Assembly: GCA_937870685.1 (NCBI GenBank)
Contig: CALMZX010000077.1
Span: forward strand, 1 to 64,000
DNA length: 64,000 bases
Direction of reading: 5' to 3'
Source: an uncultured Alphaproteobacteria bacterium
Lineage (GTDB): Bacteria > Pseudomonadota > Alphaproteobacteria > Rhizobiales > Aestuariivirgaceae
Within the stretch, counting starts at the first letter, position 1. Each line of letters opens with the position of its first letter. Below are positions 30,346-34,976 of this stretch, in pieces. Under the pieces are notes generated by a model. The model saw only the letters and a list, made by a program, of their open reading frames with translations. It was not told the DNA's origin and made no database searches. Both the position numbers and the translations under genes were made by a program.

Positions 30346-30366
30346 GAGGGGGTGAGTGCTTAAGGT

Positions 30367-30433
30367 GGCATGTCGTGCTCGGGGAAAACTGGAGGGACTG
30401 TTCCCGTACGGGCCTTTCGTCTGCATGCAGTGG
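30367..30433 (+). repeat. Direct repeat copy 1 with two perfect 10-bp palindromes
   Basis: About 62/67 identical by hand alignment to 32657-32723; contains CCCGTACGGG (30403-30412) and CTGCATGCAG (30421-30430). Confidence 0.85.
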
Positions 30434-30534
30434 TGAAAAGGGGTATTGCCATTGGCAATTATTGATTGAAAACCGCCATCTTTCCTTCAACCCGCCGTTC
30501 TGCTGGACTTCAACTGGGGGTGGGAGAGTGAATC

Positions 30535-32415: not shown

Positions 32416-32656
32416 GGGGGCACGTGCCGGATGATGACGTGCCTTGTGGAGTGGGGCGTCGAAGCTTGTGCATGTGGCAAGAGCCCCACGCGGGGTTCCG
32501 ACTCGCGCGCGACATCTCGCCTGCGGCGAGATCAAGAAGCGCGGCTGGAATGACGGGACCTGGGGGATGGAAGAGTGCACACCCCAACACCCGTCATGGT
32601 CCACGCATGTGGGCCATCCACCTTTGATCGTCGGTTCCGGGGGAGAAGATCACGGC

Positions 32657-32723
32657 GGCATGTTGCGCTCGGGGAAAAATGGAGGGACTGTTCCCGTACG
32701 GGCCTGTCGCCTGCATGCAGTGG
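32657..32723 (+). repeat. Direct repeat copy 2 with two perfect 10-bp palindromes
   Basis: Same orientation as copy 1; CCCGTACGGG (32693-32702) and CTGCATGCAG (32711-32720) at the same 18-bp spacing. Confidence 0.85.
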
Positions 32724-32851
32724 AGTGGAAAAGGTATTGGATTCGGCAACCTGCCCGGCCACTCACGCCGCACCCGCTTTTGGGCGGGGGCGATCGGCGT
32801 GCAGTGGCATCAAGAAACGCAGCGGTTTTGGCCTGCAATGGACGCTCTCGC

Positions 32852-33062
32852 CAGTTCCACACGGCGCAGCACTTACAGGCTAGGCACGGCTGCAAGGTTG
32901 TGTGGTTGAACTGCGGTAAACCGCGCTTGGGCCGTAGTACCCAAGGGGCGGACATCCGGCTCCCGGGGAGCTTCGCTGCTTGGGCGAAGATACGCGGGCG
33001 CTGCACATGGTTCAGGCAGTGTAGACAAGCTCGCGACACTGATCCCTCCTTGCCTGAACCAT
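32852..33062 (+). ncRNA. Candidate structured non-coding RNA (identity unknown; strand tentative)
   Basis: Consecutive hairpins: CAGTTC-CACAC/GTGTG-GTT-GAACTG, GCGG-TAAA-CCGC, CTTGGG/CCCAAG, CGG-ACAT-CCG, GCTCC-CGG-GGAGC, CTTCGC/GCGAAG, and ATGGTTCAGGCAGTGT/ACACTG..CCTGAACCAT. No credible protein in any frame. Confidence 0.5.
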
Positions 33063-33133
33063 CAAGCGCATGTATTCCTATATTGGGGATCATGTCAAGG
33101 ACAATTTTCACATCACCGGCCAGCGACCTGCCG

Positions 33134-33259
33134 CCTGTCCCTCATCCGCCCTCCGGGCACCTTCTCCCGTCAGGGGACGGGAGAAGGCGATACCCATCAA
33201 GGCCTTCTCCCGCGCTATTCGCGGGAGAAGGTGCCCAATGGGCGGATGAGGGGCGGGTG
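33134..33259. repeat. Nested palindromic intergenic repeat
   Basis: Outer CCCTCATCCGCCC...GGGCACCTTCTCCC pairs with GGGAGAAGGTGCCC...GGGCGGATGAGGG; inner hairpins CTTCTCCCGTC/GACGGGAGAAG and CCTTCTCCCGCG/CGCGGGAGAAGG. Confidence 0.88.
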
Positions 33260-33308
33260 GCAGGAATCCCTGCCCGACCATGGCCGATGAGGGGGCACGC
33301 AGCCGCCC

Positions 33309-34407: not shown

Positions 34408-34686
34408 ATGATCAGGTCATGGGCCAACGCGGTGACGCGGCAGTTTGCGGAAGGCGGGAAATCGAAGTTCTCCGGGCTTGACGTGGAGGCCGCCGAAGAC
34501 ATGTTGACCATGCTAGACGCGGCAACATCGCTCGCGGACATCAGCCCCCTGAAGTCGGTGGGTCTTCACCCATTGAAGGGCGACCGCAAGGGACAATGGG
34601 CCATGACCATCAACGGCCCATGGCGGCTGTGCTTCCGCTTCGAGGGTGGCGATGCCCATGACGTTGAAATTGTGGATTATCATTGA
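34408..34686 (+). CDS. higB: HigB/RelE-type toxin
   Basis: LSDISPLKSVGLHPLKGDRKGQWAMTINGPWRLCFRF-type sequence, VEIVDYH C-terminus. Confidence 0.9.
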   Translation: MIRSWANAVTRQFAEGGKSKFSGLDVEAAEDMLTMLDAATSLADISPLKSVGLHPLKGDRKGQWAMTINGPWRLCFRFEGGDAHDVEIVDYH

Positions 34687-34697
34687 GGAGACCGATC

Positions 34698-34976
34698 ATG
34701 CGCGCTGTGCATCCGGGACGGATTTTGAAACGGGAACTGAAGGCACGGGAACTGTCCGCCAACGCACTGGCGCTCGCCCTGCGCACCCCCTCCGGGCGCA
34801 TCACCGACATCCTGAACGAGAAGCGCGCCGTCTCAACGGAAACCGCCATGCGCCTCGGCCGCTATTTCGGCCAGTCACCGCGTTTCTGGATCAACCTGCA
34901 ATCAAGCTACGATCTGGCAATTGCCGAGGCGGAGATCGGGAAGCGGCTGGATGAAGAGGTGGCGAAGGCGGGGTGA
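34698..34976 (+). CDS. higA: HigA-type XRE-family antitoxin
   Basis: HPGRILKRELKARELSANALALALRTPSGRITDILNEKRAVSTETAMRLGRYFGQSPRFWINLQSSYDL. Confidence 0.93.
   Translation: MRAVHPGRILKRELKARELSANALALALRTPSGRITDILNEKRAVSTETAMRLGRYFGQSPRFWINLQSSYDLAIAEAEIGKRLDEEVAKAG

Follow-up and report, generated by a model that had tools for sequence, protein, structure and literature searches.

What is the dense run of inverted repeats at positions 32852-33062 of the window, i.e., of the whole 64,000-nt stretch of DNA that was analyzed? The original prediction, made from the letters of this stretch, saw in it an orphan structured RNA without coding potential, either of a new class or a stand-alone HEARO/OMEGA RNA that had lost its nuclease gene. 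The inverted repeats do lie where it placed them. It should be noted that the stand-alone folding energy is unexceptional compared to that of dinucleotide shuffles (z of -0.96 for the plus strand and -0.82 for the minus strand); the density of hairpins by itself thus proves nothing. The element stands out from chance because the same blocks recur in order elsewhere in the genome and in the genus, and because the helices covary: the hairpins of this run belong to a ~400-nt RNA of the minus strand, itself a single member of a dispersed family.

A check for other copies, which had been proposed with the prediction, found the element at ten places in the window's own genome, several of them at contig ends, as repeats break assemblies. 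The 3' block of the element (32650-32718, minus strand) recurs in numerous fragments at contig ends, in the window's genome as well as in a close relative. The covariance model R1, which matches the window at 32915-33068 with 151 bits, has matches in at least 31 of the 37 genomes of the genus and at least 17 matches in one genome, counts that are lower bounds, with 81 candidates scored per genome. Across the order the matches are sparse, in a few genomes of other families, and across the class they were found in two of 386 genomes, one of which is the window's own. Transketolase similarity, to Rhizobiales and Paracoccus, is informative for these genomes only to the level of Alphaproteobacteria. 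The plasmid and phage collections contained no match to the RNA; two pattern matches in viral contigs, both located within a phage-type coding gene, were rejected as chance. No Rfam 15 family was matched at the gathering cut-off, nor by the copies at relaxed thresholds, and the returns were limited to tRNAs and chance microRNA-like matches to nearby palindromes. The strong covariation, the lack of an Rfam match and the wide occurrence within one genus support the idea of a large structured RNA, possibly of a new class. A second, truncated relic of the 3' block was seen at 30364-30448 of the window, where two surface-protein-like ORFs flank it; it shares 87% identity with the block and has the same orientation.

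The element is larger than the hairpin run. In the own-genome search, the matched part starts at 32650 and extends to ~33065-33102, depending on the copy, with an identical block order throughout. Repeat homology in the window covers 32650-33065 and ends at 32650; with a start at ~33062, the putative RNA body occupies 32650-33062 of the minus strand. A sigma-70-like promoter lies at 33069-33098 on the same strand, with the -35 box TTGACA at 33098-33093, an 18-nt spacer and a weak -10 box, TACATG, at 33074-33069. The promoter of the relatives has the form TTGAC[A/T], about 17 nucleotides, and TATA, a TATA-like box being found in most of them. On the minus strand, all of the first 17 copies have a TTGAC[A/T] box at their right-hand end (TTGAC is invariant, the spacer is variable), most of the later copies resemble these 17 in the promoter, and copies with identical bodies keep the boxes and differ in the spacer. 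Since conserved promoter boxes mark the right-hand end, we infer that the RNA is read as the minus strand, from ~33062 leftwards. The window copy was not called in a strict consensus promoter scan, its -10 box being poor, and no intrinsic terminator was found for it. The full extent, from the promoter at 33098 to a stop codon at 32650, the minus strand and the translated frame described below had all been missed in the original prediction.

Several further sequence features were noted near the promoters. In many copies, among them L136, L140 and L163, the promoter is overlapped by an operator-like dyad, TTCCTA ... TAGGAA; a genome pattern search for this promoter dyad performed no better than the reversed control. 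In six order-level copies (L078, L084, L089, L092, L079 and L103), AACTTATCC is found upstream in place of TTGACA, which suggests that the order-level relatives use another promoter type. A long REP-like inverted repeat, CCTCATCCGCCC ... GGGCACCTTCTCCCG, is located at 33117-33276 of the window, just beyond the RNA, and similar copies are present at other loci in the genome.

The base pairs of the RNA covary strongly across homologues. In a structure-blind alignment of the 5' domain from 15 copies, 88.6% of the cells were paired and there were 78 double-change cells, compared to 24.5 in shuffles; every one of the slid controls for this alignment was far lower. The hairpin P1 with its inner stem (33007-33062, this and all following elements on the minus strand), in which 33062-33053 pairs with 33016-33007 and the Shine-Dalgarno sequence lies in a bulge, had double changes in nine of ten pairs on 36 copies (full-length alignment) and in nine of nine on 82 model-fitted copies; it should be noted that part of the structure evidence, including this 82-copy score, was obtained on the data from which the structure had been derived or to which it had been fitted. 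The hairpin P4 (CTTGGG/CCCAAG, 32926-32945) had double changes in six of seven pairs and was 91.7% paired over the 36 copies, and the hairpin P5 (GCGG/CCGC, 32911-32924) was 97% paired, one pair changing from C-G to G-C in eight copies. Thus, three of the hairpins described from the window are kept by homologues. The CTTCGC/GCGAAG repeat belongs to the longer helix P3 (32958-32998), which has a variable apical part and double changes in nine of 13 pairs; the GCTCC-CGG-GGAGC and CGG-ACAT-CCG hairpins are not retained in the family and represent local alternatives. A multi-branch helix is formed by the 5' strand GCAGCG (32999-33004) and its 3' partner CGCTGC (32819-32824); it was 98.6% paired, and four of its six pairs never vary. 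The branch at 32852-32913, described earlier as the CAGTTCCACAC hairpin, is variable: homologues have a similar repeat with other letters (ACCACAC/GTGTGG in the window, ACCTCAG/CTGAGG in others), which is apparently kept in most copies, as judged by eye with the pairs unscored. Of the 3' helix P7 of the full-length model, the part beyond the core was dropped, as the larger alignment did not support it (31.9% paired).

Besides these local helices, a long-range interaction is predicted. The Shine-Dalgarno sequence GGAGGGA (33043-33049), conserved in nearly all translated copies, is complementary to a 3' anti-Shine-Dalgarno segment, GTCCCTCC (32681-32688), with CCCTCC at 32687-32681. Over 36 copies, 93.4% of the cells of this helix were paired and two of its eight pairs were changed on both sides; because the helix crosses P1, it would be a pseudoknot. 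The conserved and partly covarying complementarity leads us to predict that the Shine-Dalgarno sequence is sequestered by distal pairing.

The fold is also found where the Shine-Dalgarno sequence and a long frame are lacking, both in the class II copies (such as L123, L130-L133, L136-L143 and L159-L161) and in the order-level relatives; this indicates that the structure has a role beyond controlling the leader frame. In 19 divergent class II copies that were outside model building and were aligned without structure, P3 and P4 refold with double changes. The class II RNAs L130-L133 and L136-L143, from the genomes G019 and G005, are present in high copy number.

The original prediction of no coding potential was wrong for the window copy and its class. 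In the window, a leader frame, CCGCCGTGA, occupies 32650-33039 of the minus strand, from a GTG start at 33039 through 129 codons to a TGA stop at 32652-32650; the start codon in the family, ATG or GTG, sits 3' of GGAGGGGA. This sense frame, preceded by the Shine-Dalgarno sequence, is open in 43 of the 44 distinct copies. Counted from the start to the 3' CCCTCC in these 44 copies, it has 2 stops in 4601 codons, whereas the other sense frames contain 115 and 126 and the composition predicts ~130; the copies are related, so that the stops are not independent events, and the two other sense frames serve as the internal control. The phase is kept as well: the start lies at many different distances from the conserved CGCTGCG motif, ranging from 153 to 240, and nearly all of these are divisible by three (L011, L013, L015, L016 and L153 deviate). 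The consistent rows of the table were used for this, as the motif had been misplaced in L115 and L151 and at a number of CCCTCC positions. Inserted palindromes of ~39-60 nt within the leader also preserve the phase. Such phase-keeping palindromic inserts, ~40-60 nt long, were seen in the leaders of L020 and L163 and at 32760-32816 of the window; in-frame palindromic elements are known from Rickettsia, and the leader inserts are reminiscent of them.

An open frame with a Shine-Dalgarno sequence, a start and a stop, fused to a conserved protein in two copies (L146 and L150), is what an ordinary fast-evolving family of small-protein genes would have, its mRNA being structured by happenstance. We regard this explanation as quite improbable, because differences in the leader are spread nearly evenly over the three codon positions with dN/dS of 0.69-0.86, codon scores are below zero except in one copy, indicating a non-coding-like codon usage, conserved RNA motifs are read as peptide in different frames in different clades (QRL vs SAC), and the class II copies retain the structure without the frame. 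The scarcity of stops and the preserved phase, combined with this dN/dS and the non-coding-like codons, show that selection acts on the open frame and hardly on the peptide. Judging from these comparisons, the RNA is evidently translated end to end, with a peptide that is hardly conserved, although a dN/dS below 1 leaves room for weak selection on it.

In some copies, the leader is followed by a second gene. The leader stop overlaps the start of this gene as ATGA in six copies (L134, L055, L121, L104, L124 and L135); the overlap is ~20 nt in L020, in L148 and L162 the downstream gene has its own ribosome site or its own start, after a short gap, and in L146 and L150 the leader is joined to it as an in-frame fusion. 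The encoded protein has 105-176 amino acids, is hydrophilic and rich in Cys, His and Arg, and carries the motif CPxx[RK]C-R-x4-C ... CxxTH, with invariant C-P...C...R...C...C..T-H residues. No convincing match to it was found in Pfam, NCBIfam, PHROGs or PADLOC, and none in a sequence search of PDB; its AlphaFold2 model was poor (pLDDT 65), and Foldseek with this model returned nothing. When the RNA and protein listings were compared by hand, an RNA match was located just upstream, on the same strand, at 18 of 19 protein loci, the exception being G007:C344. The protein gene was found in 15 genomes, all of which have the RNA, with about one or two genes per genome; in the window's genome, these are located on contigs C145 and C122. 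Most RNA copies stand alone, without a downstream protein gene. This holds for the window copy, where an 18-codon frame alone follows GTGA, and in this sense the term orphan was appropriate.

With some one or two protein genes per genome, nearly always behind the RNA, the family could consist solely of an autoregulatory leader of the Cys-rich protein, the stand-alone copies being decaying relics kept alike by gene conversion. The gap upstream of lepA contains a class II or translated copy in six genomes and apparent remnants in others, and these remnants resemble decay. However, the stand-alone copies by themselves (35 distinct ones) keep the frame open, with 2 stops versus 88 and 107 in the other sense frames, and there are 16 genomes of the genus with the RNA and no detected protein gene, which makes the explanation by relics unlikely. 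As most copies have no downstream gene, translational coupling cannot be the purpose of those copies. The copies without the gene have probably kept a function, perhaps as translated RNAs that work in trans.

The window copy and the copy at G000:C127 have a near-identical tract at 32764-33057 (alignment and BLAST), resembling gene conversion; despite this near-identity between 32764 and ~33057, the two copies differ in the promoter and at 32705-32763. The paralogues L013, L015 and L016 have identical model scores, and between the orthologs L016, from the window's genome, and L037, the downstream flank is 88% and the RNA 76.5% identical. This looks like gene conversion among paralogues with partial homogenization, although other modes of copying are also possible. 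From species to species, the copies are mostly found in different gaps, which in some cases lie within the same neighborhood; L009 and L105, considered as candidate orthologs, were rejected on finding them in different gaps of one neighborhood. At 34408-34976 of the window, there are two adjacent small ORFs, presumably resembling a HigB/HigA toxin-antitoxin pair, and similar ORFs occur near the copies L135 and L137.

The location of stand-alone copies, mostly in gaps other than those of their relatives, makes mobility possible. Mobility has to be weighed for the additional reason that a survey of 50 bacterial genomes handled multi-copy motifs as mobile or repeat candidates (PMC11109978). The family could be mobile or selfish DNA, i.e., a cassette of promoter, structured RNA and leader frame that spreads, with the hairpins serving movement; the high copy number per genome, with numerous copies at contig ends, the occupation of different gaps of one neighborhood in different species, and homology that mostly stops at or near the leader stop are all consistent with it. 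On the other hand, no transposase or nuclease recurs among the ORFs flanking the copies, no inverted ends are evident, some loci seem to be kept between species (L016/L037 and the lepA gap in six genomes), and passive DNA needs no selection on promoter and frame. On balance, we consider mobile DNA a somewhat unlikely explanation.

We therefore favor, with a probability of about one half, a self-sequestering translated leader that has its own sigma-70-like promoter and dispersed stand-alone paralogues partly homogenized by gene conversion. At the level of comparative sequence, the helices, a frame kept open, a nearly unconstrained peptide and, in some copies, a protein start or fusion are established. 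According to the proposed mechanism, the RNA would limit its own translation: when the 3' CCCTCC holds the Shine-Dalgarno sequence, the RNA would be silent; a ribosome that enters must cross the leader and would thereby open the structure; where the protein gene follows, this ribosome would restart at the protein start, i.e., the two frames would be coupled. Stops would be excluded and the peptide free to drift because the ribosome must cross the leader. For stand-alone copies, one guess is that they titrate, in trans, either a shared regulator, which is the simplest idea, or the protein. A bolder version can be put forward tentatively: these would be RNA genes that need end-to-end translation although the peptide is irrelevant, the passage of the ribosome being the signal, and a gene-converted swarm would share one circuit with the Cys/His-rich protein that stands behind a few of its members. 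The family is unusual in its combination of features: its RNA genes are dispersed, have their own promoter and a covarying fold, and are under selection for an open frame and not for the peptide. This raises the testable question of whether an RNA gene can have translation itself, and not its product, as its function. We also note that such frames are readily annotated as hypothetical proteins or discarded as intergenic repeats.

Compared to known systems, the family shares with the HEARO/OMEGA RNAs (RF02033) structure, several copies per genome and the frequent lack of a protein gene. It differs in its own promoter and translated frame, with no IscB seen in the flanks. The suggestion of a HEARO/OMEGA guide RNA without its IscB nuclease is extremely improbable, as the RF02033 covariance model gave no match at gathering or relaxed E-values, no nuclease recurs beside other copies, and the associated protein is small and Cys/His-rich and matched no nuclease family. 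REP/REPIN and other intergenic palindromes are likewise dispersed intergenic inverted repeats; the present element, unlike these, is ~400 nt long and has an ordered multi-helix fold, a promoter and a reading frame. GOLLD, ROOL and OLE, whose role is unclear (PMC12286853), are large structured RNAs of bacteria, as is the present family, which differs from them in being dispersed, translated and without a match in Rfam. By analogy with ribosomal-protein and other autoregulatory mRNA leaders, a structured leader directly 5' of one protein family might bind or control that protein. The RNA is located upstream of 18 of the 19 CPxx[RK]C genes but does not occur exclusively with the gene, and it differs from such leaders in numerous stand-alone copies, translation throughout the leader, and a protein of no known family. 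The search of the open-access literature (subscription papers and preprints were outside its scope) yielded nothing equivalent to the RNA family, and both RNA and protein are in no described family of the libraries searched.

The closest parallel in wiring is hok/sok, whose compact mRNA of ~400 nt is inert in its full-length form through structural sequestration, and in which hok expression depends on translation of the overlapping upstream frame mok (PMC5668327, PMC11228461). In the present RNA, too, the Shine-Dalgarno sequence is predicted to be paired distally, with conserved complementarity, and the downstream gene appears to be coupled to an upstream frame, here at the sequence level through the ATGA overlaps in six copies. 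Unlike the short membrane toxin of hok/sok, the downstream product is hydrophilic, Cys/His-rich and 105-176 amino acids long; the leader frame is longer (~90-180 codons), and most copies have no downstream gene. We rate the RNA family as categorically new, whereas its putative translational wiring resembles a known kind, that of mok-hok.
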